Assembly: GCA_003218415.1 (NCBI GenBank)
Contig: QHNK01000076.1
Span: 1-36,505 of the forward strand
Source: Verrucomicrobiota bacterium
GTDB lineage: Bacteria > Verrucomicrobiota > Verrucomicrobiia > Chthoniobacterales > UBA10450
DNA length: 36,505 bases
Reading direction: 5' to 3'
Both the position numbers and the translations under genes were made by a program. This document shows positions 2,415 through 34,563 of this stretch, piece by piece (the stretch's first letter is position 1; each line of letters starts with the position of its first letter). Under the pieces are notes generated by a model that was given only the letters and a program-made list of their open reading frames with translations, was not told the DNA's origin and ran no database searches.

Positions 2415-3874
2415 CCGCCCGCTTTTAGCACAGCGAAAGTCTTGCTGCCTTTGCGGTCGAGGTACAGGAGGACGCCGCGTTTCGGGTCGGCTTTGTTCAG
2501 CGCTTCGCGGAATGATTGCACGTTTTTCACTGGTTTGCCGTCCACTTCGGTAATGACGTCTTCGCGCTGGAGGTCCTGAGCCGCAGCAATGCTGTTGTCC
2601 TCCACATCGGTGACAACCACACCTTTTTCGACGGGGAGATGAAGACGTTCGGCAACATCTTTAGTCAATTCCTGCACCTGCAATCCAAATTTGCCGACTT
2701 CCTGCCGCTCTGGCTGTGCGGGCCGGGGCGGTTCATTTGACGCTCGCGCGATCTCGTTAGGTAATTCACCGGTCTTGATGGGAACTTTTATGGTCTGGCC
2801 TTTGCGCCACACGGTCAGCTGGACATTTTGGTCGATCTTCTTTTTCAGAATCTCGTGCTGAAGTTGCGAGTCGGTTTCGATCGGCGTTCCATCCACCTGG
2901 GTAATTACGTCGAACGGGCGCAAATCACTTCTGGAAGCAGGCGCATCGGCTTCGATGGTGCGCACCACCACTCCTTTTTCCGTGCCTTTGAACAAATCCC
3001 GGATCGCCGGGTCGTCTCCCAGCGTCTCGATGCGAATGCCCAGCCAGGGGCGCACGATCTTGTGGCCGGCAACCAGCTCGGCGCCGATTTCCTTTGCCAT
3101 GTTAATTGGAATGGCGAAGCCCAGCCCGCGGTTCATGCCGTTGATCAGCGTGTTCATTCCAATCACTTTGCCGTCGATATCACAAAGGGGGCCGCCGCTG
3201 TTGCCCGGATTAATTGAAGCATCGGTCTGCAAATAATCCGAGATGGAGTACCCGCCCGTCTGAAACAATTTGCTTCGGCCTTTGCCACTAACCACGCCGT
3301 AGGTGAATGTGTAATCGAGCTTGAACGGCGCGCCGATGGCGAACGCAAACTGTCCAACCCGCACAGTATCGCTATCACCAAGCTGGACGACCGGCAAATC
3401 CTTCGCGTCGATCTTGACGACTGCGATATCGGTTTTTTCATCCGTGCCCACCACCCGTGCCGGAAAATTCCGCCCGTCTCGCAACTTCACCTCGATTTTG
3501 TCTGCGCCTTCGACCACGTGAAAGTTCGTGAAGATGTAGCCATCGGGCCGCACGATAAAACCAGAGCCTTCGCTTTGGACCGGACGCAGTGCTCCCGGGT
3601 TTCGCCGCGGGTTGTTTTCATCGGGCGGTCCTTGGAAGAACAGGTCCTCCAGCGGCGAGCTTTCGCTGATTTCGTTCTTTTTGGAAATCTCAATAATGAC
3701 AACGCTAGGCGCCACGGTTTCGAAGACTTTTGCGAAGGCGTTGTTCAATTGATGAACAACATCCTTGCCTGCCTCCGCCGCAGCAGCAGGAACACTGGAA
3801 GTTGGGACGGCCTCGGGTTGTGCCGCAAACGATGTACTGAGTGCAACGCACAGGGTCAAAATGGATAAGCGCAT
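2411..3874 (-). CDS. degP: Periplasmic serine protease Do/HtrA family, two PDZ domains
   Basis: Signal peptide (MRLSILTLCVALSTSFAAQP), catalytic TNFHVVEGAD / TDIAVVKID / GNSGGPL, two PDZ-like regions; start chosen at the internal Met of ORF 2411..3913. Confidence 0.9.
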   Translation of the reverse strand: MRLSILTLCVALSTSFAAQPEAVPTSSVPAAAAEAGKDVVHQLNNAFAKVFETVAPSVVIIEISKKNEISESSPLEDLFFQGPPDENNPRRNPGALRPVQSEGSGFIVRPDGYIFTNFHVVEGADKIEVKLRDGRNFPARVVGTDEKTDIAVVKIDAKDLPVVQLGDSDTVRVGQFAFAIGAPFKLDYTFTYGVVSGKGRSKLFQTGGYSISDYLQTDASINPGNSGGPLCDIDGKVIGMNTLINGMNRGLGFAIPINMAKEIGAELVAGHKIVRPWLGIRIETLGDDPAIRDLFKGTEKGVVVRTIEADAPASRSDLRPFDVITQVDGTPIETDSQLQHEILKKKIDQNVQLTVWRKGQTIKVPIKTGELPNEIARASNEPPRPAQPERQEVGKFGLQVQELTKDVAERLHLPVEKGVVVTDVEDNSIAAAQDLQREDVITEVDGKPVKNVQSFREALNKADPKRGVLLYLDRKGSKTFAVLKAGG

Positions 3875-4019
3875 CGGTTGGAATTTGGACAGCACTGAAG
3901 ATGCAACGTTCAACTGGATACGTCCAATCCCAGCTTACTCAAAGGCGCGCTCGCAGTTCCGCCATATTTCTACTACATTCTCTGACGAAGCTCGTATAAT
4001 TTCCGGCCCAACCCTGTTT

Positions 4020-5312
4020 ATGCACGCGTTCAAGAGGCGAGTCGTCTTTGGGGCAGGCGTCGTGCTTTTGATATTGTTTTGGGCAATCGCGGTTGGCCCC
4101 GAGCCGCCTGCGCGCATCTCCATCTCGCCGGAGGAACTGGTTCGAGCTGTCACCATTCAGCGCGATTCGCTAATCGACCTCTGCCTGATCGAGCACGTCA
4201 ATCCAAACGGGCGCGATGCGCAAGGGCGCACGCCGTTGCTAATCGCAACATCGCAACAGGATTGGAAAACGGCGCTCCGGCTCGTTGAAGCCGGTGCGGT
4301 GGTTGATCTTGCAGATAAGAACCGTTTTACGCCGCTCATGGCGGCAGCGATGCACGGTAATCTGGAAATCTTTCAGTTGCTCCTCGCACGCTCAATCAAT
4401 CTTCATGCCGAAGCCACGTGCACGGACGGGCGGGATCTCCTAGGAGTGGCGCTCGAGGGCGAAAATCCGGAGATCGTCAAGACCGTGATCGAGCGGTTAC
4501 CGACGATGCCGCACTGGAAAACCAGTACGCGACGCGCTCTGACCGCAGCGCTCCAAGCGGGGAACAAGGACCAAATCCGATCGCTCCTTCGCAAACATTC
4601 AACACCTCCGACGCCTGAGGGCAGGAACGTGCCGTTCCTTGCCTATTCGATCGCGGGAAACAACTCCTCGCTTTTTAGCACGCTTCTGGGTTGCGGAGCC
4701 GATCTCAACACCGTTCTTCCATCGCGCTGCGATAAGGATTTTCTCGCGCTGCTGCCGTCGAAGTCGCTGCGCAGTTACGTTGAAGAAGACCGCAATCTTA
4801 CCGTCGTGATGCTTGCCGCGGGGCTTGGACAGGACGATTACCTGCGCGCGCTGCTCGATGCGGGAGCCAACCGGAACCGGCTGACGAGCCGGGATAAGAT
4901 GTCTGCGTTGGATATTGCCGCAGAGACGGGTCATTGGCGGGCCGCACAAATTCTTCTTGGCGGCGGGCCATCGCCAGATCGGTTGCGCCTCGAAATTTCT
5001 CTCGCTTTGCAACGGGTCGCCCTCGTTAAGGATGGTGCGCCGGTGTATCGCACGCAATGTTCGACTGGCCGACCAGGTTATTCGACGAAAACGGGCGAAT
5101 TTGTGATCACCAATAAGGAACGATACCATCGTTCCACCATCTACCACGTGGACATGCCGTATTTCATGCGGCTGAGCTGTCTTGATTTTGGAATGCACGC
5201 CGGGTACGTGCCGAATCACCCGGCGTCACACGGTTGCATTCGGTTGCCGGAGGAAGCTGCTCGCAAATTTTTCTCCGAACTTCCGGTCGGCACGCTTGTG
5301 ACGGTGCAATAA
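4020..5312 (+). CDS. Ankyrin-repeat protein with C-terminal YkuD L,D-transpeptidase domain
   Basis: N-terminal TM anchor; repeated GRTPLLIA / RFTPLMAAAMHGNLEIFQLLLA / NLTVVMLAAGLGQDDYLRALLDAGAN / KMSALDIAAETGHWRAAQILL ankyrin units; C-term HPASHGCIRLP, the L,D-transpeptidase Cys motif. Confidence 0.85.
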   Translation: MHAFKRRVVFGAGVVLLILFWAIAVGPEPPARISISPEELVRAVTIQRDSLIDLCLIEHVNPNGRDAQGRTPLLIATSQQDWKTALRLVEAGAVVDLADKNRFTPLMAAAMHGNLEIFQLLLARSINLHAEATCTDGRDLLGVALEGENPEIVKTVIERLPTMPHWKTSTRRALTAALQAGNKDQIRSLLRKHSTPPTPEGRNVPFLAYSIAGNNSSLFSTLLGCGADLNTVLPSRCDKDFLALLPSKSLRSYVEEDRNLTVVMLAAGLGQDDYLRALLDAGANRNRLTSRDKMSALDIAAETGHWRAAQILLGGGPSPDRLRLEISLALQRVALVKDGAPVYRTQCSTGRPGYSTKTGEFVITNKERYHRSTIYHVDMPYFMRLSCLDFGMHAGYVPNHPASHGCIRLPEEAARKFFSELPVGTLVTVQ

Positions 5313-18609: not shown

Positions 18610-19485
18610 CTACGACGCCGGAAGAGGCGCCAGAACGTGAAGGGCTTTTTGCTGGATCTGGAATTCAACCGGACAGTTGCCAGCGAGCTCGCCGTCAAGC
18701 TCCAAGGGGACATCCTGCTCGCTCGTTATGCGCAGTCGGCGAGTCTGAAAATATTCAATTTCAGGAGCGCGGATTTCGGAGCTGAATATAACATCCTGGA
18801 GATACTTGATTATTTCGAGATAGCCGAGCCGTTTGAACACAACGACATCGAACAAACCATCATCGATAATGGCGCGCTTGAAAAATGGGAAAGGGCCGCC
18901 GTAAAGGCGCCCGTTTCCGATGAGAACAAACGATCCTTCCCCCACGGAGCCGCTCTCCGACTCAATATAAAGTTTCGGCGGTTGCCGCGCCGCAATCTGT
19001 GCTGCCGAGATTAGATAGCTTAGCGGACCGAAACTGCGCTTTGACGCGAGGCTGGTTTCTTTGACGACTTGTGCGTCGAGCCCAACGCCAGCAAGCTGCA
19101 CAAAACATTTTCCATTCGCGCTCGGTAGATCGACCAGACGCGTATTCTCCCCCTCGATGATTTCCCAGCAAAGCTGCAGATTGTGCAACGGCAGACCAAG
19201 CTCCATCGCGAAAACGTTCACTGTGCCCATGGGCAGAAGACCCAACGTCGTATTACTGCCGGCCAGCCCATTTGCCACGTGATTGACTGTTCCATCGCCG
19301 CCCGCTGCAACGACTCGTGCGAAGCCTTCCTCGACGGCGCGCCGGGCCAGCGCTTCCGCTTCGCCCGCATGCGACGTAATGCGGATGGGGCAACCGCGGG
19401 CGATCGATTCGACGCGCTCCTGCCAATCCCGAAGACTTTCGGGACTGCCCGCGGCTGGATTGAGAATGACAACTGTATCAGTCAC
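18610..19485 (-). CDS. Diacylglycerol kinase / YegS-like lipid kinase
   Basis: VVILNPAAGS, VVAAGGDGTVNHVANGL, LGLLPMGTVNVFAMELGLP. Confidence 0.92.
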   Translation of the reverse strand: MTDTVVILNPAAGSPESLRDWQERVESIARGCPIRITSHAGEAEALARRAVEEGFARVVAAGGDGTVNHVANGLAGSNTTLGLLPMGTVNVFAMELGLPLHNLQLCWEIIEGENTRLVDLPSANGKCFVQLAGVGLDAQVVKETSLASKRSFGPLSYLISAAQIAARQPPKLYIESESGSVGEGSFVLIGNGRLYGGPFPFFKRAIIDDGLFDVVVFKRLGYLEIIKYLQDVIFSSEIRAPEIEYFQTRRLRITSEQDVPLELDGELAGNCPVEFQIQQKALHVLAPLPAS

Positions 19486-23092: not shown

Positions 23093-23169
23093 GTCCCAAA
23101 GTTCGAAAACAGTTCGGCAATTTGCCTTGCGTCCAAGAGCAGCAATTCCGATATTGCCCGCGCTTTTGT

Positions 23170-23242
23170 GACCCTATCGTCTAGAGGCCCAGGACACCGC
23201 CCTTTCACGGCGGTAACACGGGTTCGAATCCCGTTAGGGTCG
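23170..23242 (+). tRNA. tRNA-Glu (anticodon UUC)
   Basis: GACCCTATCGTCTAGAGGCCCAGGACACCGCCCTTTCACGGCGGTAACACGGGTTCGAATCCCGTTAGGGTCG: 7-bp acceptor stem, CCGCC-CTTTCAC-GGCGG anticodon arm, GGTTCGAATCC T arm; no encoded CCA. Confidence 0.97.
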
Positions 23243-23251
23243 CACTGGTTG

Positions 23252-25336
23252 ATGCTGCTGATCACCGGCGTGTTGTTCGTGCTGGTCGTGACACTCGTGG
23301 ATCTGAAGCCGGTGGTGGATCAGAATTTTTTCTTTTCAACCAGCGATCCCGGTATCCAGCAAACCAAAAAGATCGAGCGACGTTTTCCCTCGCAGCCGGA
23401 AGTGATTCTGGCCGTGTCGTCGCGCGATATTTCTTCGCAGCGATATCTGGGTCGAATCCAAAAACTCACCCAACGCGTCCACACCATTGGCGGCGTCAGC
23501 GCGGTCAAAAGCCTGGCTGAAGGACCGAAGAGTTTTGACGACGCGCTAAAGAGCCCGTTTTGGAGCCGGTTGCTGGTGGCGCACGACCGGAAGTCAAGCA
23601 ACGTGATCATTTTCATGAAAGGCAGGCATACGGAACAGCCGATCCAGCGCCTGGAGCAGATCGTGCATGAGCTCGACGCGCCAGATTTTCGGATTCATAT
23701 CGCTGGTCCGCCGTACGTGGTGGAAATGCTTCGGCGGAGCCTCGCTCACGATTTCCGTTACTTCAGTCTCACAGCGGTTGTGTTGTTTGGTCTGACGATG
23801 GCCGCATTGTTCCGATCCGTCCGGTTGTTTATAGGAATGCTCTGCGCATGCGCGAGCGCTGTTTTATTGACTCTGCTCGTGCAATCGATGCTGGGTCACA
23901 AGATCGGAATCCTAACGGTGAACCTTGGCACGATCGTCTTCGTTATTGCGTTGTCGCACCTGGTTTATATGACGTTCAACTGGCAAACGCTCGCCGACCG
24001 CGCACACCGCATAGAAAAAGAGTCGCCGAACCTCGCGGGGGACGCGTTACGCATGACTTTCCCGGCTTCGTCTTGGTCGATGGTCTGCGCATCGTTAGGC
24101 TTCGCCAGTTTGCTCATTGTGCAGGCCAAGCCGCTGCGTGAGCTGGGATTTGGCGGCGTGCTCGGGACGGTCGTGGCGTTTGCCTGCGCCTATTTGATGT
24201 ATCCGGCGTTCCTGCGCTGGGCCGTGCCGCGCAAAAGCAAAATCGTAGAGGCGGAACCTACACACGCATTTTGGTCGCGCCGTTTTGGACTGCTCTCGTT
24301 AGGCGTCATTTTGCTTGGCGCGGTCTTGGGGCTGGGCCTGGTCAACGTGAACACCGACCCGAGCCTTATGGATTATTTCAAGCCCAATCAGGAACTGCGC
24401 GATGGATTGGAATTTGTGGATCGCACCGGCGGCTCGAATCCGCTCACGCTGGTTGTGTCCTCGTCAAACGGCGCCCTGCTGAACACGGACGCGGCTTACG
24501 AAAAGATGTGGAGGCTGCACGGCGCGCTGGAGAACCAGAAAAGCGTCGGGACTGTGACTTCGCTGCCAACTCTTCTGGCCGAAGGCGACCGCGTGCCGTT
24601 TTCGTTTCTCATCAGCTACGAAAAAATGATGGAGATCATGTCGCAACCCAAGTACGCGCGGGTCTCGAAAAGTTTTGTGACTGACGACCGCAAGGAAGCA
24701 GTGTTTATGCTGCGGATGGTCGAGGGGCGTCGTACGAAATATCGGGTGGACCTGGTAGATGATCTTCGCGCTGTCTGCCGCAAGTACGGATTCAAGGCTG
24801 ACCTCGTCGGCGGCATCTATTACTTGCAAGGGCGACTCGCCAAACTGGTCGCTGAAAGCTTGGTGACCGGTTTGTTCTGGCTGAATCTGTTGTTCATCGT
24901 GATCGCGTGGGTCGTCGCGCGGTCCGTTCGCGGCGCAGTGGCGATGATCGCGAGCGTGACTCTCGTGCCACTATCGATGCTTGGCGGCATCGGCTGGTTC
25001 CATGTGCCGGTGGACATCATTTCTGCGCCGGCCACGAACGTCTGTATCGGCATCGCGATTGATTCGATGATTCATCTCGTCTTCGGCGTTCGCCGTGCGC
25101 AACGCGACGGAAAGAAAGGCTGGGACGCATGGGTCTTCGCGCGCGAAGAACAATGGCGCGGAATCGTTTATTCGGATGTGATCATCGCCGCCGGTTTCGC
25201 CATTTTCGTGCTCTCGGATTTTCCACCGACACAACGGTTCGGTCTCGTCGTTCTCGCTGGATGCGTCATCGACATCCTGGCGAATCTATTCGTATTGCCG
25301 CTACTCGGCGGCGCGGAATTGAAAAAGCGCGTTTGA
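23252..25336 (+). CDS. RND/MMPL-family transporter (lipid exporter-like)
   Basis: Two MMPL-like halves with TM clusters (NLGTIVFVIALSHLVYM; PATNVCIGIAIDSMIHLVFG); ATG at 23252 is the first Met beyond the tRNA. Confidence 0.85.
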   Translation: MLLITGVLFVLVVTLVDLKPVVDQNFFFSTSDPGIQQTKKIERRFPSQPEVILAVSSRDISSQRYLGRIQKLTQRVHTIGGVSAVKSLAEGPKSFDDALKSPFWSRLLVAHDRKSSNVIIFMKGRHTEQPIQRLEQIVHELDAPDFRIHIAGPPYVVEMLRRSLAHDFRYFSLTAVVLFGLTMAALFRSVRLFIGMLCACASAVLLTLLVQSMLGHKIGILTVNLGTIVFVIALSHLVYMTFNWQTLADRAHRIEKESPNLAGDALRMTFPASSWSMVCASLGFASLLIVQAKPLRELGFGGVLGTVVAFACAYLMYPAFLRWAVPRKSKIVEAEPTHAFWSRRFGLLSLGVILLGAVLGLGLVNVNTDPSLMDYFKPNQELRDGLEFVDRTGGSNPLTLVVSSSNGALLNTDAAYEKMWRLHGALENQKSVGTVTSLPTLLAEGDRVPFSFLISYEKMMEIMSQPKYARVSKSFVTDDRKEAVFMLRMVEGRRTKYRVDLVDDLRAVCRKYGFKADLVGGIYYLQGRLAKLVAESLVTGLFWLNLLFIVIAWVVARSVRGAVAMIASVTLVPLSMLGGIGWFHVPVDIISAPATNVCIGIAIDSMIHLVFGVRRAQRDGKKGWDAWVFAREEQWRGIVYSDVIIAAGFAIFVLSDFPPTQRFGLVVLAGCVIDILANLFVLPLLGGAELKKRV

Positions 25337-25369: not shown

Positions 25370-26398
25370 ATGCAGGCCGCGTTTTACCAGTCGGAATCTG
25401 ATCAGCCGCATCCGGGGCGGGCGCGAGCGGTCATTAAGGCGCATCCGGAAGTTCGCCAGTTGATGGTGCGCAATCCGTGGACTGCTTTGCTCGCGGTCTC
25501 GATCGTGATCCTGCAGACGGCGATCGCATGCTGGATGGGCACGCTTGGGTTCGGTTATTGGTGGCTGAGTCTACTTATCGCCTTTTGCATCGGCGCGTTC
25601 GCCAATCATGCCAACTACGTGATCATACATGACGCGACGCATAACCTGATTTTCCGCAGCCCAGGCTGGAACAAAATGGTCGGCATCATCGCCGATCTTC
25701 CCAACCTGGCGCCGGGCGCGATGGGGTTTCGCGTTTATCATTTGAAACATCATTCGCACCAGGGCGATTACGAATACGACGCCGATCTGGCGAACCATTG
25801 GGAGGCGCGCCTCGTGGGCAACAAGTGGTATCGCAAGGCGATCTGGCTAATGCTCTTTCCGTTCTTTCAGGTGACACGCCCGCCGCGGTTGAAGGCGGTC
25901 AAGATGTGGGACCGATGGTTCTCCACCAATCTCGCATGTGCGGTCGCGTACGACGTCGCGATCGTTTATTTCTGCGGCTGGGCCGGATTTCTCTATCTCG
26001 TGTTCGCTTTTTTCTTCTCCATTGGTTTGCATCCGGTGGGCGCACGGTGGATCCAGGAGCATTACACGTACGATTTCGACCAGGAAACTTTCAGTTATTA
26101 CGGGCCGATCAATCGGGTGGCGCTGAACATGGGCTATCACAACGAACACCATGATCTGCCATCGATCCCATGGAACAATCTGCCGAAGCTGCGCGCCATG
26201 GCACCCGAGTTCTATCAGAATTTAAAATATCACTCGTCATGGAGCCGACTGTTATTTCAGTTCGTTTTTGACAAGCGGTATAGTCTCTATTCGCGAGTCG
26301 AACGAATGAAACAAAGGGCAGGGTCCCAAGGGACTCCAGAAGCGACAAGCAGTCGGACTGGCGATCTTGATCTCAGTGCCCGGCCCATTAGTTTTTAG
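25370..26398 (+). CDS. Sphingolipid delta-4 desaturase (DEGS/DES1)-like fatty acid desaturase
   Basis: Lipid_DES-like N-term (SDQPHPGRARAVIKAHPEVRQLMVRNP), His boxes HDATH / HLKHH / HNEHH, DEGS-like QETFSYYGPINRVALNMGYHNEHHDLPSIP; RBS TTGGAGGG upstream. Confidence 0.88.
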   Translation: MQAAFYQSESDQPHPGRARAVIKAHPEVRQLMVRNPWTALLAVSIVILQTAIACWMGTLGFGYWWLSLLIAFCIGAFANHANYVIIHDATHNLIFRSPGWNKMVGIIADLPNLAPGAMGFRVYHLKHHSHQGDYEYDADLANHWEARLVGNKWYRKAIWLMLFPFFQVTRPPRLKAVKMWDRWFSTNLACAVAYDVAIVYFCGWAGFLYLVFAFFFSIGLHPVGARWIQEHYTYDFDQETFSYYGPINRVALNMGYHNEHHDLPSIPWNNLPKLRAMAPEFYQNLKYHSSWSRLLFQFVFDKRYSLYSRVERMKQRAGSQGTPEATSSRTGDLDLSARPISF

Positions 26399-26400
26399 TT

Positions 26401-27015
26401 ATGGCGGAGCGACTCTACGTCTCGAACAAGAACGAAACGGTTCGAATGTTCGAGAGCGATTTCATGGAATTGTTTTCGCGGGTGCACCCGGCAACTCCGT
26501 TGGTCCTTTACCTGCCGGTAGTCGGCTCCATGCTTTACCTCGCGCTGTGGCGACAAAAATTATCGATCCTAGCGGTCGCAGGATTTTTTCTGCTGGGTGT
26601 TCTGCTTTGGACATTGCTCGAATACCTCATCCACCGGTACATATTTCACTACGAACCCAAGACACGCCTGGGGAAACGGCTGCATTACATCATTCACGGC
26701 GTGCATCACGATTATCCAAACGATGCGCGGAGGCTCGTCATGCCGCCGAGCATCAGCGTGCCGCTTGCTTTTCTTTTTTACGGCGTGTTCCTGCTAATCT
26801 TCGCGCGCTTCGCGTCGAGCGCATTCGCGGGGCTGGTTTTTGGTTACATTTGTTACGACATGCTTCACTACGCGACCCATCATTTTCCGATGAAACGCGG
26901 CGCGTGGCTATGGCTGAAGCGGTATCACCTGCGCCATCATTACAGGGATGATCACGTGGGATACGGCATCAGCTCGCCGCTTTGGGATTACGTCTTTCGG
27001 ACCACGCGGAAGTAG
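26401..27015 (+). CDS. Fatty acid 2-hydroxylase (FA2H/SCS7)-like, sterol desaturase/fatty acid hydroxylase superfamily
   Basis: LYVSNKNETVRMFESDFMELFSRVHP; EYLIHRYIFHYEP, HYIIHGVHHDYPNDARRLVMPP, YDMLHYATHH, KRYHLRHHYRDDHVGYGISSPLWDYVF. Confidence 0.86.
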   Translation: MAERLYVSNKNETVRMFESDFMELFSRVHPATPLVLYLPVVGSMLYLALWRQKLSILAVAGFFLLGVLLWTLLEYLIHRYIFHYEPKTRLGKRLHYIIHGVHHDYPNDARRLVMPPSISVPLAFLFYGVFLLIFARFASSAFAGLVFGYICYDMLHYATHHFPMKRGAWLWLKRYHLRHHYRDDHVGYGISSPLWDYVFRTTRK

Positions 27016-27159: not shown

Positions 27160-27365
27160 GCCTGCAAACAGCGAAGCCGTAGTTTACTAAAATCTTGTCC
27201 TGAAATCCGAACTCCGCTAGATTGGCTGCCCCGACACGGAACTCCGCGGTATGCAGATGTAGCGGACAACTTCGTAAGGAATCTAGTGAAGCACAAAAAA
27301 TCTCAATTTTGCTGGGAAACATCGTTCGCAACGACGGGAGCGAGCGAACCACAGTATATCGTTTC

Positions 27366-28622
27366 ATGAACGAGGACCCGGCAAAACTTAGTCTGAGCAA
27401 TTTTCTGGCGGGCGAAAGCGACGATCCGCTGCAAGCTCCAGCGAGCTTTACGGACTGGATACGTCTTGGTGCGTGGGCGGTTGAATTGTACGAACCTGAG
27501 CTCCTCGCCACCGCAGATGCGCGCACCGTTATTAACTATGGTGGAAAACCGCGGCCGGTTATTAATCTCTGCTCCTACAATTATCTCGGCCTTGCCAATC
27601 ATCCCGAGGTGCTGGCCGTTGCCCATGAGGCTCTGAGGACGCACGGGATGGGGGCGTGCGGTTCGCCGATGCTCTCAGGAATGACGGACCTGCATCGCGA
27701 ACTGGAGCGGCGCGTCGCGAAATTTCTCGGACGCGAGGACGCGATGCTTTTCAATAGCGGGTTCGGTGGCGCGCTGGGCACGATCTCGGGCCTACTTCGC
27801 AAGAGCGATGTGGCCATTCTGGACAACCGTTCGCACCTTAGTCTTCGCGACGGCGCCGTGTTGTCCCGGTGCAGGACAGAGAAGTTTGAGCATAACGATC
27901 CAGCCTCGCTTGATGTGGCATTGACCCGTCAAAAAAGGCGTCGGCAGCTCGTGATTGTCGAAGGCATTTATTCCATGGACGGCGACTTCGGGAACCTGAG
28001 GGAATTGCTTGCTGTCGCGGAGTCTCATGGCGCCAGTGTTTTCATTGACGAAGCGCACTCCATGCTGGCATGCGGCGAGCATGGCCGTGGAGCGGCTGAG
28101 AAGTTTGGCGTAGAAGATCGCGTCCCGCTCCTTTATGGAACGTTCTCCAAGGCGTTCGGCGCGCTGGGAGGTTTTGTTGCGGGCTCGAAAGAGACGCTGC
28201 AATACCTGCGTTTCTATGCGCATCCTTATGTTTACTCCTGTGCGCTGCCGCCGGTGGTGATTGCGGCCATTTTGAAGGCGCTCGAGCTCGGCACCAGTCA
28301 GCCGGAATTGCGCGCGCAACTTTGGGAAAACGCCGATTACTTCCACGCGCAACTTCGAAGCCTTGGACTCGATAGCGGAGCATCGACAACCTATGTGATG
28401 CCGATCGTCATCGGCGATCGAGAGCGGATGTATCGGCTTGGGCATGAACTTCGGCGGCGTGGTCTTTGGGTTGCGCCGGTGGATTATCCGGCTGTGCCGC
28501 AAAATCGAATCTGTTTCCGTGCCTGCGTAACCGCCAAGCATACGCGTGCAGACTTGGACGAAGCCCTGAATATTCTCGCGGACACGCTCGTCCCTGCGAT
28601 GCTACAAAGGCAGAGCGCCTGA
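27366..28622 (+). CDS. spt: Serine palmitoyltransferase-like alpha-oxoamine synthase (PLP-dependent)
   Basis: SYNYLGLANHPEV, GMGACGSPMLSGMTDLHRELE, FIDEAHSMLACGEHGRG, GTFSKAFGALGGF (PLP Lys), YSCALPPV; context supports SPT over BioF/Kbl. Confidence 0.82.
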   Translation: MNEDPAKLSLSNFLAGESDDPLQAPASFTDWIRLGAWAVELYEPELLATADARTVINYGGKPRPVINLCSYNYLGLANHPEVLAVAHEALRTHGMGACGSPMLSGMTDLHRELERRVAKFLGREDAMLFNSGFGGALGTISGLLRKSDVAILDNRSHLSLRDGAVLSRCRTEKFEHNDPASLDVALTRQKRRRQLVIVEGIYSMDGDFGNLRELLAVAESHGASVFIDEAHSMLACGEHGRGAAEKFGVEDRVPLLYGTFSKAFGALGGFVAGSKETLQYLRFYAHPYVYSCALPPVVIAAILKALELGTSQPELRAQLWENADYFHAQLRSLGLDSGASTTYVMPIVIGDRERMYRLGHELRRRGLWVAPVDYPAVPQNRICFRACVTAKHTRADLDEALNILADTLVPAMLQRQSA

Positions 28623-28640: not shown

Positions 28641-29579
28641 TTGACGTCTCAACCGACAGAGACCTCGCATTCGCGCGTCGCAGCCACCTACAAAGCGCGC
28701 GAGGTAGAAGGCGTCCTCGATCTGTATTTTTACAGGCCGTTAGGGTTCCGGCTCGCCGAGTTTTTCGCGCGACTCAAGATGACGCCGGCGGCTGTGACAT
28801 TGCTGGGCGGCGTCTGCGGCGTCGTTGCGGGACACCTTTATTACTATCGTGATTTACGCATCAATATCATGGGCATGCTGCTGCATGTTTGCGCTAATGC
28901 GCTCGACAACGCGGACGGTCAGCTCGCGCGTTTAACTCAGAGGGAAAGCCGCAAAGGCCGCATTATCGACAGCGTCGCCGACCATTTGGTGTTCGTGAGT
29001 ATTTATCTGCATCTGACTCTCCGCTGTGTGTTCGAAGGTTCGTCACCGGCGATCTGGGTTCTCGCTTTTGCCGCTGGAATCAGTCACGCGTTGCAAGGAG
29101 CGACGGCGGACTATTACCGCAGCACCTACCTTTACTTTACAGCAACCGGAGGGCGAACCGGATTGGACTCCTCCTCTGGAGTCCGATCAGAGTATCAGAA
29201 GTGGAGCTGGCATCAGAGACCATGGGACAAACTTCTCCTCGCGCTGTATTTGAATTTCACTCGCCAACAGGAAATGCTCGCGCCTCGTCTGAAAAAGCTG
29301 CGCGAGACAGTCACCGAACTTTTCCACGGCCAAATCCCGGGTTGGCTACAGCAGCGTTATCAAAACCTGGCTGGCCCGATGCTGAAGTGGTGGAGGTTAC
29401 TCATGACGAACACGCGAATGCTGGTTCTATTTGCGCTCCTGCTCATAGGCCGGCCGATTTACTTTTTCTGGTTCGAGCTCATACCCTTTAATTTGCTGTT
29501 CGTTTACCTGATTTTCCGCCAGGAAACTATAGCTGAGTCGATGCAAGAAGTTGCCCAGAAATGGAGAGACTTGGCCTGA
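28641..29579 (+). CDS. CDP-alcohol phosphatidyltransferase family protein (copy 1)
   Basis: DNADGQLARLTQRESRKGRIIDSVADHL matches DGxxARx8GxxxDxxxD; probable TTG start. Confidence 0.86.
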   Translation: MTSQPTETSHSRVAATYKAREVEGVLDLYFYRPLGFRLAEFFARLKMTPAAVTLLGGVCGVVAGHLYYYRDLRINIMGMLLHVCANALDNADGQLARLTQRESRKGRIIDSVADHLVFVSIYLHLTLRCVFEGSSPAIWVLAFAAGISHALQGATADYYRSTYLYFTATGGRTGLDSSSGVRSEYQKWSWHQRPWDKLLLALYLNFTRQQEMLAPRLKKLRETVTELFHGQIPGWLQQRYQNLAGPMLKWWRLLMTNTRMLVLFALLLIGRPIYFFWFELIPFNLLFVYLIFRQETIAESMQEVAQKWRDLA

Positions 29580-29595
29580 ATCGCCATCTAAGTTC

Positions 29596-30729
29596 GTGTC
29601 GGATATTGAAATTTCAGAAGTCAACTCGCGTCGGGAGCGCAGCGCGTTCATCAAATTTCAATGGCAAATTTATTCGAATGATCCCGCGTGGGTGCCGCCG
29701 TTGATCATCGAACGGAAAACGTTCCTCGATCGAAAGCGGCATCCCTTTTACAGGCACGGCGACGCGGCCTTATTCCTGGCGCGGAAAAATGGCGAGATCG
29801 TTGGTCGCATCATGGCCAGCGATGATCCCAATTACAATTCGCTGCACCAATCAAACGTGGGCTGTTTTGGCCTGTTCGAATCCATCGACGATCAGGATGT
29901 AGCTACTGCGCTGTTTGACGCTGCGGCCCGTTGGCTTCGCACGAAGGGGCGGACTGAGATGATGGGGCCAATCGATTATTCAACCAATTACGTCTGCGGC
30001 CTGTTGATCGATGGATTCCAGTTTCCGCCCACCATATTGACCGCGCACAATCCGCCGTACTACCGCGACCTGATCGAGAGATGCGGCTTTACAAAAGCAA
30101 AGGATTGGTACGCGTGGTGGTTCGTCGATCCATCAAAAGCCGTGGCGCATTTGCAACGATTGGCCGCACGTTTCAATGCGCGCTGTCCCGCCATTATCCG
30201 TCCGGCGAACCTTAAGGATCTTCGCGATGAAAGCAGACGGCTTCGAGAAATTTACAATCGGGCATGGGAAAAGAACTGGGGTTTCGTGCCGTTTACAGAA
30301 GCGGAGATCGAGTTCATGACGCACGAGCTCAAGCCGCTCGTTATTCCGGAGTTCGCGCTCATTGCCGAAGTTGGCGAAGAGCCAGCCGGCTTCATTCTGG
30401 GTGTGCCGGACATCAACGTCGCCCTGCGTCATATCAACGGCCGGCTTATGGCTTTTGGATTGCCAATCGGCCTCCTAAAACTTCTATATTACAAGAACCG
30501 CACGCGGACTGCGCGGCTTATCGCGCTTGGCGTGATTGAAAAATATCGCCGTAGCGGTATTGCCGAAATGCTCGTGCTGCGGATCGTCGAAGACGCAATG
30601 ATCAAACGTGGATTCGCGGGAGAACTCAGTCTCACGCTTGAAGACAATTTCATGATCAACCGTTTTCTCGAAGCAATGGGAGCGCAGCGCTACAAGACAT
30701 ATCGAATTTTTGACAGGACGCTGACTTAA
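29596..30729 (+). CDS. GNAT-superfamily acyltransferase; candidate bacterial ceramide synthase (YghO-like)
   Basis: About 380 aa; SAFIKFQWQIYSNDPAWVPPLIIERKTFLDRKRHPFY..., MMGPIDYSTNYVCGLLIDGF, ALGVIEKYRRSGIAEMLVLRIV (GNAT acyl-CoA loop), TLEDNFMINRFLEAMGAQRYKTYRIF; GTG start proposed. Confidence 0.75.
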   Translation: MSDIEISEVNSRRERSAFIKFQWQIYSNDPAWVPPLIIERKTFLDRKRHPFYRHGDAALFLARKNGEIVGRIMASDDPNYNSLHQSNVGCFGLFESIDDQDVATALFDAAARWLRTKGRTEMMGPIDYSTNYVCGLLIDGFQFPPTILTAHNPPYYRDLIERCGFTKAKDWYAWWFVDPSKAVAHLQRLAARFNARCPAIIRPANLKDLRDESRRLREIYNRAWEKNWGFVPFTEAEIEFMTHELKPLVIPEFALIAEVGEEPAGFILGVPDINVALRHINGRLMAFGLPIGLLKLLYYKNRTRTARLIALGVIEKYRRSGIAEMLVLRIVEDAMIKRGFAGELSLTLEDNFMINRFLEAMGAQRYKTYRIFDRTLT

Positions 30730-31436
30730 TGAGCAAGCCCCAAGACGGTTTCGTTTCGCGGTTTTTGAATCGGCCGATTTCGCGCCGGATAACGAGGTTT
30801 CTGCTCAAGGTTCCGATTCATCCCAACGGGTGGACGATATCGATCTTTGTTTTGCCGCTAATCGCGGGCGCATTCCTGGTGCGCGGCGATTACGCCAGCG
30901 TCGTCATTGGCGCGGCTATTTTTCAAGCGTTCAGTATTCTCGATGGTTGCGACGGCGAAATTGCGCGCGCCAAAAATTTGGAATCGACCTTCGGGGAACG
31001 TTTGGATTATTTCTGCGATTTTCTCGCAAGCCTTATCTACGTTCTCGCGCTTGGGTTAGGGCGTCATCATTCAGTCGAAGGAATCGTCTGCGCCGGCTTC
31101 ATCGCGGCTAACGAATGGCTTCTGCGAGGTGGCAAGAACGAAATGCAGATTGTTTCGGCGATGCTGCACGAGTCGTATTATGCGAGGCACCACGGAATGA
31201 TCGGGCATTCCGGTTTGCTGAATCTCGGTGAACGATTTGTGTGGTGGCTCTTTCAGCTGACCAAGCGGGACATGGCTATGCTCGTTTTTCTCATGCTCGC
31301 GTTAGTCGACTTGGCTGACTGGATCCTTCATCTTTGGACGATTGTTGCCGCAGCAAGCCTGATTCTCAGCACGATAGCCACGATCAGATCCAGCGTGGCC
31401 GATGGCGATGTTGTTACGCGCGAGCCGCGATCGTAA
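30729..31436 (+). CDS. CDP-alcohol phosphatidyltransferase family protein (copy 2)
   Basis: DGCDGEIARAKNLESTFGERLDYFCDFL matches DGxxARx8GxxxDxxxD; TAATG overlap with upstream gene. Confidence 0.87.
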   Translation: MSKPQDGFVSRFLNRPISRRITRFLLKVPIHPNGWTISIFVLPLIAGAFLVRGDYASVVIGAAIFQAFSILDGCDGEIARAKNLESTFGERLDYFCDFLASLIYVLALGLGRHHSVEGIVCAGFIAANEWLLRGGKNEMQIVSAMLHESYYARHHGMIGHSGLLNLGERFVWWLFQLTKRDMAMLVFLMLALVDLADWILHLWTIVAAASLILSTIATIRSSVADGDVVTREPRS

Positions 31437-31468: not shown

Positions 31469-32221
31469 TCATTTGACTAAGCGTGACGGGCGCTTAGCCA
31501 TCTCTTTCTCGGCATGCTGGAACATTTTCGGAGTATCGATGTCTTGCCACCAACCCTGGCCGATATCTATGGCACGGACTTTGTTATCGGCTGCCATTAA
31601 TCGAACTCCATCAGCTAGGCTGCAATCATTTCGGCGGCCGTCGGATTTCGCTCGCTTGAGATAGCCGAAGATTTCCAGCGGGCAAACAAGCAAACCGGTA
31701 TCAACCGCATCGTAATCCCGCAGATCTTTTCCGATGCCGATCACTCTGTTTCCCCGGGTTTGGACTTTCATCGCATCTTCCAAATCGAAAATGGAACCGA
31801 GTTTTCGATCCACCGCGATGTTTAGGAAATCGGAATCAAAAGAATCGAGCAGGTGATCAACGATCACATCGTCGAAAAGGTGATCGCTCATTGTCAGGAG
31901 AAATGGCCCCTCGACGTGATCGGCCGCCGCGAATAAAGAAATGCCATTCTGTTTTCGCCAATCGCAATTTTCGATGAAGAACGCGCTGACGCCAGAAGGA
32001 ACCAACCGTTTGAGCTGTGCAATCATGCGCTCGCTTTCGTAGCCGACCACGAAGTGGACGGTTTTGATCCCTGCGCGGGTCAATGCATCCAGAGTGTACG
32101 AGATTAAGGGGCGGCCGAGCACAGGGACGAGCGGTTTCAGGAAAGTCTTATCCGAACTGCGCAGGCGCGAGCCTTCCCCGGCGGTCAAAACTACTGCTTC
32201 GGAAACAGGAGCCATAAACAT
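31469..32221 (-). CDS. MobA/RmlA-like NTP transferase, probable CTP:inositol-1-phosphate cytidylyltransferase-like (IPCT)
   Basis: VVLTAGEGSRLRSSDKTFLKPLVPVLGRPLI; LTMSDHLFDD; DLEDAMKVQTRGNRVIGIGKDLRDYDAVDTGLLV; WWQDIDTPK, the pattern recalled for archaeal IPCT domains. Confidence 0.75.
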   Translation of the reverse strand: MFMAPVSEAVVLTAGEGSRLRSSDKTFLKPLVPVLGRPLISYTLDALTRAGIKTVHFVVGYESERMIAQLKRLVPSGVSAFFIENCDWRKQNGISLFAAADHVEGPFLLTMSDHLFDDVIVDHLLDSFDSDFLNIAVDRKLGSIFDLEDAMKVQTRGNRVIGIGKDLRDYDAVDTGLLVCPLEIFGYLKRAKSDGRRNDCSLADGVRLMAADNKVRAIDIGQGWWQDIDTPKMFQHAEKEMAKRPSRLVK

Positions 32222-32269: not shown

Positions 32270-33070
32270 TCATATTCCGTAGTATCTCTTCAGTCCCCAG
32301 AGGCGAACGCGCTGCGGAAGAAATCTGAAAATCATCGGTGCAATTTTGGATTCGAACACATTGCCCACCGTTTTCCGAGGCGGCGGGCGCACGGCGTTGA
32401 CTAAGCTTAGAACATGCCGGGCGACGAGGTCCGGGCCTGGTGCCTTTTTCATGTTGCGCTCGACGATTTCCCAAGTCTTGGCGATTTTTGAGTCGTAGCG
32501 CTCGGCTTTCGCGCTCTGGACCACGCTCTTGTTAAATTGCGTGGAAATGTCGCCCGGCTGAAGGTCAACAATGTGCACCGGGGAATCGGCCAACTCGAGC
32601 TGGATTGACATGGTAAAGGCTGCCAGCGCTGCTTTAGCGGAGTTGTAAGCCGCCATGAACGGCACTGGAAGCCGGGAGGCTAGCGAAGTGACGTTGATGA
32701 TCAAACCTTCGCCACGCGCCTGCATGTGGCGCAACGCGAGCTGCATCAATTGGATTTGACCGAAAACCAGAATTTGAAACTGACTGGCGATCGTTTCCAT
32801 GGGCAGGAACTCAGCGGGGTCAAAGTGACCGGCGCCGGCGTTGTTGATCAAAACGTCGAAGTAACCAGCTTCCGTGAGCGCAGCATTGAATGCATCTTCG
32901 ATCGAAAGCCGATCGGCCAGATCGAGACGGACCGCATGGCATCGCGGCATTTTGGGGATGCGTTGCAAATTGCGCGATGTACCCCACACTTCGTGACCTT
33001 CACCGACGAGTAACTTTGCAATGGCAAGACCGATGCCAGAGCTCGCACCGGTGATAAAAATGTGTTTCAT
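32270..33070 (-). CDS. Short-chain dehydrogenase/reductase; candidate 3-ketosphinganine or 3-oxoceramide reductase
   Basis: MKHIFITGASSGIGLAIAKLL, LINNAGAGHFDP, NVTSLASRLPVPFMAAYNSAKAAL (S..YxxxK); function from context. Confidence 0.85.
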   Translation of the reverse strand: MKHIFITGASSGIGLAIAKLLVGEGHEVWGTSRNLQRIPKMPRCHAVRLDLADRLSIEDAFNAALTEAGYFDVLINNAGAGHFDPAEFLPMETIASQFQILVFGQIQLMQLALRHMQARGEGLIINVTSLASRLPVPFMAAYNSAKAALAAFTMSIQLELADSPVHIVDLQPGDISTQFNKSVVQSAKAERYDSKIAKTWEIVERNMKKAPGPDLVARHVLSLVNAVRPPPRKTVGNVFESKIAPMIFRFLPQRVRLWGLKRYYGI

Positions 33071-34563
33071 GAAGAGCGACGCCGTTCGACAAGATAAAGC
33101 CGGACACGGCGATGTTGAGGAAAAATCAACATTGAGCGCCTGAATTCGGCGAGCTCTATCAAGTAACAATCTTTCTGCTTCAGGGATGGATCCTCAGTAT
33201 AAATCGCCGCCGCATTACGCAGCACTTCTTCATCCTCCTCGGAGATGGGGAGATGGTCGAGTATTTTGAATTGCGGCGCGTACCACTGGGCGGAACGGCG
33301 CGTAGTAGGCAGAATCAAGACCACGTTGCCGCGCTTCGAAGGCGGATAAAGCCTCTCCAAATAGCGCACGAGCCGGACGGGCGGTGCTTCATCACGGTGA
33401 TTTTCTATCCCTAAAGGAACGGCGATATAAAGGAGCAATGCCGGAACGCAGATCGCCGAGAAGTTCCACGGGCTTGGTAATCGTAAAAGACCGCGAAGCA
33501 TCACGACAAGAAGCAGCGGAAAGACCATGAGATAGTACCTTTGATCGCCCGGAAGAGCGATAAAAGTGATCGCAATTTGCACGAAAAGCCAGGGAGCGTG
33601 AAACTTCCAAAATCGCCGATCCGTCGCATCGTATCCGTACCGAATATAAGCAATCGCCGCACACGTTGTAAGAACGATACCGGCTCCGAGCACGCGGGGC
33701 GATTGAATAAAGCCGAACCCTTTCGAAAACCACCCGAGAATGTGGGAGGCAAACCGCACTCCCAGATAGTGAGGAGTCCAATCGCCGGCCCCGATATAAA
33801 TGGAAGGTCGATTTAGACGCCAGCGCCATTGGCCGTACACGAGCTCGGGATAAACCCGCCAGAATCCCCCACTCGGCCGGAGTTGAGACTGTATGTACCA
33901 CATTGGCAAAAGCCAGGTCAGACAACCCGCGACCAGCAGCGCATACGAAAGACACCATGTCTTCGCATCCACCGAGCCTTTCTTGAGCGGAATGCCAAGA
34001 ATCAGTGCGACTACGGGAAACAATTGCGGTCGCGTGCCGGCTGCGGCCGCCCCCATGAGAGCAGCCCAGACAATCAGGCCGCGCTTCTTCTGTTTTAAAA
34101 AGTAGACAGCGGCAAGTAACTCCGTGCTCATGAAACCGGCTGCCAACATGTCGGTCAGCGCCTTCGTAGCGGTCATCCAAATCACTGGCGTCATCAGCAA
34201 GGAAATTGCGACCCACCATGCGAGCTTCTCGGAAAACTGCGCGCGAATAATCGAGAACCAGGCCGCGATGAAAAGTCCGCCGCCAAATGCCGAAACGCAG
34301 TAAAGCGAAGATTCCGTTCCGGTGTGGAAAAGTTTCGTCCCGAGCCAGCCTAAAAAAATGAAGAGTGGATACCCGGGTGGATGCGGCTGGTGATGCCAGA
34401 GATCGAATGAGCGCACGCCCATCGCAAATTGCACAGCATCGATTTCATCGAGCGCCGGCGAATGTGTGAAAAAATAAAGCGTGAAGGCGGCTAAAAAAAG
34501 GAGCACGCCTTTAATCACGGATTGCTGGCTCGAATCGCCTTGTTCCATCTCGGTTGAGGTCAT
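33067..34563 (-). CDS. GT-C fold membrane glycosyltransferase-like protein (GT39/DUF2723-like)
   Basis: About 10 TM helices; ALDEIDAVQFAMGVRSFDLWHHQPHPPGYPLFIFLG, PALDExD-type first loop. Confidence 0.72.
   Translation of the reverse strand: MTSTEMEQGDSSQQSVIKGVLLFLAAFTLYFFTHSPALDEIDAVQFAMGVRSFDLWHHQPHPPGYPLFIFLGWLGTKLFHTGTESSLYCVSAFGGGLFIAAWFSIIRAQFSEKLAWWVAISLLMTPVIWMTATKALTDMLAAGFMSTELLAAVYFLKQKKRGLIVWAALMGAAAAGTRPQLFPVVALILGIPLKKGSVDAKTWCLSYALLVAGCLTWLLPMWYIQSQLRPSGGFWRVYPELVYGQWRWRLNRPSIYIGAGDWTPHYLGVRFASHILGWFSKGFGFIQSPRVLGAGIVLTTCAAIAYIRYGYDATDRRFWKFHAPWLFVQIAITFIALPGDQRYYLMVFPLLLVVMLRGLLRLPSPWNFSAICVPALLLYIAVPLGIENHRDEAPPVRLVRYLERLYPPSKRGNVVLILPTTRRSAQWYAPQFKILDHLPISEEDEEVLRNAAAIYTEDPSLKQKDCYLIELAEFRRSMLIFPQHRRVRLYLVERRRSS

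Follow-up and report, generated by a model that had tools for sequence, protein, structure and literature searches.

In mammals, one enzyme family carries out both delta-4 desaturation and C4 hydroxylation, two related reactions, and the sphingosine-type and phytoceramide-type lipids are usually regarded as eukaryotic. The eukaryotic sphingolipid delta-4 desaturases DEGS1, DES1 and ifc combine the domains PF08557 and PF00487. In bacteria, sphingolipid operons have been described in Caulobacter/Rhodobacteria (aasR, cerR, acpR, spt, cerS). The Caulobacter cerS gene also lies near LptF/LptG genes, and the Caulobacter DesA-family protein CC_0202 has been reported to place a hydroxyl group on the amide-linked fatty acid (PMC11324152). 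The open-access literature searched yielded no description of a bacterial Lipid_DES enzyme and nothing useful on bacterial DEGS, on Verrucomicrobia/Udaeobacter sphingolipids, on myxobacterial ceramides or on DES2 residues.

The enzyme described here represents a known kind in a new variant, and its operon adds interest. Like DEGS1, DES1 and ifc, it has an N-terminal PHxxRxxxIxxxHPE-type motif, three His boxes, an SYYGPxN...GYHNEHHD block, a conserved SW, a YSR-type tail and a similar length; unlike them, it has R for H in GH[FY]I and W for G after [VI]P, is encoded in a bacterial operon, and falls outside the clade formed by the eukaryotic and Myxococcota proteins (100/99). Within its cluster, we read the gene product as a membrane di-iron Lipid_DES-family enzyme that probably acts at C4 of the sphingoid base of (dihydro)ceramide, with a probability of about 0.72.

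A Lipid_DES-family membrane enzyme in a soil bacterium

The window, that is, the whole stretch of 36,505 nucleotides that was analyzed, derives from a Candidatus Udaeobacter-like soil bacterium of the Chthoniobacterales (Verrucomicrobiota), whose assembly comprises 2.05 Mb and is 87% complete. An initial annotation had proposed a desaturase with a Lipid_DES-like N-terminus at 25370–26398 (+), and the open reading frame is present exactly as claimed: it starts with ATG, encodes 342 amino acids, and carries a ribosome-binding-like GGAGG a few bases 5' of the start. Pfam searches, for which the curated gathering scores served as cut-offs, bore out the N-terminal domain: Lipid_DES (PF08557) matched residues 5–37 (25382–25480, +) at 32.8 bits (cut-off 23; E 4.7e-8) and, in the search of the genome, at E 7.9e-9 as the sole match, and FA_desaturase (PF00487) matched at 92.8 bits against a cut-off of 29.7 (E 3.8e-26). 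Profile searches detected no Lipid_DES domain in the other two FA_desaturase proteins of the same genome and none in 14 control genomes, though five of these have FA_desaturase proteins. The score above the curated cut-off, together with these two null results, excludes a chance match.

All three proposed histidine boxes are there and intact, namely HDATH (residues 87–91), HLKHH (124–128) and HNEHH (257–261), and their histidines are invariant or nearly so in an alignment of 39 homologues. The DEGS-like C-terminal block is also present and reads FSYYGPINRVALNMGYHNEHHDLPSIP, its first residue being F and not the Y originally given. An AlphaFold2 model of the protein was confident (pLDDT 87.4), and a fold search with this model returned the general desaturase/AlkB fold only, with AlkB and stearoyl-CoA desaturase among the best solved relatives at low similarity; the PDB yielded no solved structure of a DEGS enzyme. 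The modelled fold fits an O2-dependent di-iron membrane enzyme, and because the match is to the general fold only, it cannot tell a desaturase from a hydroxylase.

The desaturase gene lies in a sphingolipid gene cluster

Judged from its predicted products, the neighbourhood of the desaturase is plainly a complete-looking sphingolipid gene cluster, which the initial annotation had not mentioned. Upstream, in a position kept in relatives, lies a predicted MMPL/RND-type transporter, perhaps for lipid (23168–25336, +; PF03176, E 6e-23, with a weak HpnN-like match). As listed, the transporter frame sets in where a tRNA-Glu gene (23170–23243) has its 5' end; translation probably begins at the Met near 23252, directly behind the tRNA.

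Two bases after the desaturase begins a predicted Scs7/FA2H-type fatty acid (ceramide acyl) 2-hydroxylase (26401–27015, +; PF04116, E 2.2e-19). Its best solved relative is yeast Scs7 (PDB 4zr0, E 6e-33, residues 21–201), with which it aligns across the catalytic domain, the FA_hydroxylase domain being matched end to end; unlike yeast Scs7/FA2H, the bacterial protein has no cytochrome b5 domain. This neighbour bears on the idea that the desaturase-family enzyme is itself a ceramide N-acyl hydroxylase like Caulobacter CC_0202, which provides a bacterial precedent for a DesA-type enzyme with that activity (PMC11324152). A dedicated acyl hydroxylase of the Scs7/FA2H type, however, already adjoins the desaturase, and searches of the Caulobacter vibrioides control genome gave FA_desaturase matches but 0 for Lipid_DES, so CC_0202 seems to lie outside the family of the window enzyme. 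We consider N-acyl hydroxylation unlikely and prefer attack at C4 of the sphingoid base.

Further downstream, an alpha-oxoamine synthase (27222–28622, +) has the serine palmitoyltransferase (SPT) of S. multivorum as its best PDB match (3a2b, E 2.2e-75), and the catalytic His, the Asp/His pair, the PLP lysine in GTFSK and the Arg are all kept. On this protein, the BioF, Kbl and SPT models of NCBIfam reach similar scores, all below cut-off; going by the best structure match, it is probably an SPT. A GNAT-family acyltransferase (29551–30729, +; PF00583, E 2.3e-13) is flanked by two genes for CDP-alcohol phosphatidyltransferases and is a candidate bacterial ceramide synthase, with homologues beside SPT-like genes at four distant loci (L053, L073, L129 and L133). 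In the alphaproteobacterial locus L055, two LptF/LptG genes are found close to a GNAT homologue, a neighbourhood like that of Caulobacter cerS, which by analogy supports, without proving, a ceramide synthase function.

The remaining genes point to a head group and a reductase. The first CDP-alcohol phosphatidyltransferase (28641–29579, +; PF01066, E 5.3e-11) may serve the head group or an inositol phospholipid. The second (30729–31436, +; PF01066, E 2.2e-11; NF041135, E 6e-20 across its C-terminal half) is followed on the opposite strand by a nucleotidyltransferase (31469–32221, −; NF041135, E 1e-34) resembling CTP:inositol-1-phosphate cytidylyltransferase, its best solved relative being an enzyme of that type (PDB 2xme, E 1e-17). 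These last two proteins each match one half of an archaeal bifunctional inositol-phosphate cytidylyltransferase/CDP-inositol transferase, and look like that enzyme split into two genes. Since both halves are encoded here and the genome also has an inositol-1-phosphate synthase, our best guess is an inositol phosphate head group attached via CDP-inositol. An SDR reductase (32270–33169, −) is a candidate 3-ketosphinganine reductase: the NCBIfam KdsR model NF049977 matches it at 159.7 bits, below the cut-off of 400, and is third best among the SDR models.

Compared with the Caulobacter/Rhodobacteria operons, the cluster likewise groups a probable SPT gene, a candidate N-acyltransferase gene and a putative lipid-transport gene. 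It differs in its Scs7-like hydroxylase, inositol-type head-group genes and KdsR-like SDR, and neither acpR nor aasR was seen in it; the Caulobacter control genome, for its part, has no Lipid_DES desaturase.

Linkage with sphingolipid genes is conserved

Of 45 Chthoniobacterales loci, 43 have the hydroxylase gene after the desaturase and two lie on contigs that break off within the desaturase; an SPT-like gene is present in 37 of the 45. For distant bacteria, linkage was counted over 46 desaturase loci of at least 9 kb each, which are not independent and represent about four lineages besides Verrucomicrobiota. An SPT-like gene lies within about 10 kb of the desaturase in 12 of these 46 loci, a GNAT homologue occurs in 10 and a hydroxylase in 8. 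If a 3.8-Mb genome is roughly taken to contain about two such synthases, chance alone would place one in some 1% of 20-kb stretches. The synthases near distant desaturases carry an SPT-like GT[FLM]SKS motif. Two loci of Pseudomonadota (L129, L133) and two of Bacteriovoracaceae (L053, L073) combine desaturase, SPT-like, GNAT and hydroxylase genes.

Some homologues stand alone, and many of the distant ones have no sphingolipid gene within 10 kb. Such cases would suit an ordinary fatty acyl or phospholipid desaturase that happens to sit beside sphingolipid genes, as would a fold common to membrane desaturases and hydroxylases in general (AlkB, stearoyl-CoA desaturase). The Lipid_DES domain is nevertheless kept throughout, and the gene is repeatedly linked to SPT-like, GNAT and Scs7-like genes in different phyla; we therefore judge an ordinary desaturase quite unlikely and retain a sphingoid base or ceramide as the probable substrate.

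The gene set shared by the Bacteriovoracaceae is relevant to the nature of the product. The known phosphonosphingolipid of Bacteriovorax stolpii reportedly has a 2-hydroxyacyl chain and a 3,4-dihydroxy base, and such a lipid would fit the combined activities of an Scs7-type enzyme and a C4-hydroxylase. By this comparison, the window enzyme could, as mammalian DEGS2 does through its hydroxylase activity, yield mainly 4-hydroxysphinganine (phytoceramide) and not a double bond. Both reactions belong to the same family in mammals, so the sequence cannot separate a delta-4 desaturase from a C4-hydroxylase. Against predominant hydroxylation, the third box, HNEHH, is as in DEGS1 (in a DEGS1 sequence entered by hand and not copied from a database), and the base structure of the Bacteriovorax lipid was not confirmed in the literature consulted. 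A mainly hydroxylating enzyme is a serious alternative, though below even odds.

The window enzyme belongs to a bacterial sister group of eukaryotic DEGS

A maximum-likelihood tree of 52 ingroup proteins was read as an unrooted split; rooting with an outgroup was rejected because the outgroup branches, at 6–10 changes per column, were unreliable. The eukaryotic rows were human DEGS1, Arabidopsis DES1 and Drosophila ifc, all three entered by hand and not copied from a database; the human and fly sequences (323 and 321 aa) match what we take to be their published lengths, and the Arabidopsis sequence is two residues short. The tree divided into two groups at 100/99. The first comprised the three eukaryotic proteins and the Myxococcota proteins of L116, L119 and L122/L123: eukaryotic and Myxococcota proteins joined at 100/97, followed by two more Myxococcota proteins at 100/99. 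The second comprised the window desaturase and 44 more bacterial proteins. Beyond Verrucomicrobiota and two MAGs titled Bacteroidota, the nearest relatives of the window enzyme were those of L129 and L133, the nine rows grouping at 100/98. Joining the window clade to eukaryotic DEGS was rejected by the AU test (p-AU 6.4e-5), in which the constrained group was one named after the first tree had been seen.

The split and the AU rejection together indicate an under-described bacterial sister group and not a recent transfer from eukaryotes: the enzyme would belong to a diverse set of bacterial proteins forming a sister group to the eukaryotic DEGS clade and not a part of it. Of the two origins first suggested for the gene, the under-described bacterial clade is thus supported, and inter-domain transfer as a recent event is not. 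The initial annotation had also named placement outside the DEGS clade as grounds for refuting its assignment, and in the strict sense the tree, with its hand-entered eukaryotic rows, places the enzyme there. Patchy occurrence in the phylum (4 of 291 genomes) is what a eukaryotic DEGS gene recently acquired by soil Verrucomicrobiota might leave, but the window enzyme sits deep among exclusively bacterial proteins in the tree, and with the AU result we regard such an acquisition as very improbable.

Two sequence markers of the eukaryotic clade are replaced in the window clade: GH[FY]I[AS]EHY by [AG]R.[IVF]QEH (ARWIQEHY in the window), and [VI]PG mostly by [VI]PW (IPW in the window). Because both markers are missing from the window clade, its regiochemistry or substrate may differ. 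The Myxococcota proteins of L116–L119 are likewise bacterial members of the Lipid_DES family, but they carry the eukaryotic-type markers and are only about 40% identical to the window enzyme. They derive from genomes G546, G557, G579 and G609, score up to 58 bits against Lipid_DES and group with eukaryotic DEGS, and each of the four genomes has a second Lipid_DES-matching copy. Being unrooted, the tree does not show whether the gene passed from eukaryotes to Myxococcota or the other way.

In the Myxococcota genome G470, a single 756-aa frame (L123:8658–10925) combines a GT21 glycosyltransferase with a Lipid_DES desaturase of the eukaryotic-type group. GT21 is the ceramide glucosyltransferase family, and this apparent fusion would link the desaturase to ceramide. 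Long open reading frames in L142 and L143 were rejected as desaturase fusions, their upstream parts being arginine-rich frames typical of noncoding high-GC DNA.

Lipid_DES proteins are scattered across bacterial phyla

The nearest relatives of the window desaturase, mostly at 77–91% identity, come from MAGs labelled Verrucomicrobia, Spartobacteria and Candidatus Udaeobacter. Homologues with Lipid_DES were found in at least five phyla, from which it follows that the domain is not confined to eukaryotes. Within Verrucomicrobiota, the four positive genomes represent the family of the window and one other. In other phyla, the tally of genomes with the domain was 27 of 143 for that of L053 (a Bacteriovorax), 20 of 146 for that of L054 (regarded as Myxococcota), 5 of 399 for the Pseudomonadota (phylum of L058) and 4 of 149 for the Acidobacteriota (phylum of L080). 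The patchy presence in Verrucomicrobiota appears better explained by transfer from bacterium to bacterium than by a eukaryotic source. Two MAGs titled Bacteroidota (L038 and L041) encode desaturases 73–74% identical to that of the window, with the rest of the cluster not on the contig, which may reflect transfer or misbinning. No eukaryote-like (algal virus) DEGS was detected in the scanned viral contigs, and a plasmid search gave remote desaturases only, at 25–27%.

Proposed function and implications

The predicted attack at C4 of the sphingoid base or ceramide follows from the enzyme family and the operon, and we count as support the gene cluster, its conserved linkage, the tree, the Lipid_DES and FA_desaturase scores above cut-off and the apparent GT21 fusion of L123. 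The product would most likely be a 4,5-trans-unsaturated ceramide, with a 4-hydroxy (phyto) ceramide or a mixture only slightly less likely.

In the proposed pathway, the SPT-like enzyme and the KdsR-like reductase would produce sphinganine, which the GNAT acyltransferase would N-acylate. The integral-membrane, O2-dependent desaturase would then modify C4 of dihydroceramide, or of a 3-keto or free-base intermediate, and the Scs7/FA2H-like enzyme would 2-hydroxylate the acyl chain. The cytidylyltransferase and the CDP-alcohol transferases would attach a phosphate-linked head group, possibly inositol, and the RND transporter would carry the lipid outward.

If members of the window clade do act at C4, sphingosine-type and phytoceramide-type lipids would be produced in several bacterial phyla, among them by a very common soil lineage. 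Soil lipidomes would then have to be reinterpreted, and where the eukaryotic ceramide desaturase originated would become a question that phylogeny can test. A broader proposal, speculative and rather doubtful as a whole, is that abundant soil Verrucomicrobiota make eukaryotic-type ceramides (with a C4-unsaturated or C4-hydroxylated base and a 2-hydroxy acyl chain) bearing an inositol-type phosphate head group via CDP-inositol, from one operon, and that the bacterial Lipid_DES pool was the source of the eukaryotic ceramide desaturase via a Myxococcota-like gene. For biochemistry, the operon is a compact bacterial source of both desaturase and hydroxylase.

Other genes in the window

Three further genes of the window were recorded. 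The protein encoded at 153–1955 joins a BadF-type kinase domain to a GKRP/MurQ-like SIS domain and has a UBA-like C-terminus, and that at 3765–5312 combines ankyrin repeats with a following L,D-transpeptidase (YkuD) domain. About 6 kb from the desaturase, a lipid kinase of the YegS/DAG-kinase family is encoded on the reverse strand (18610–19485, −).
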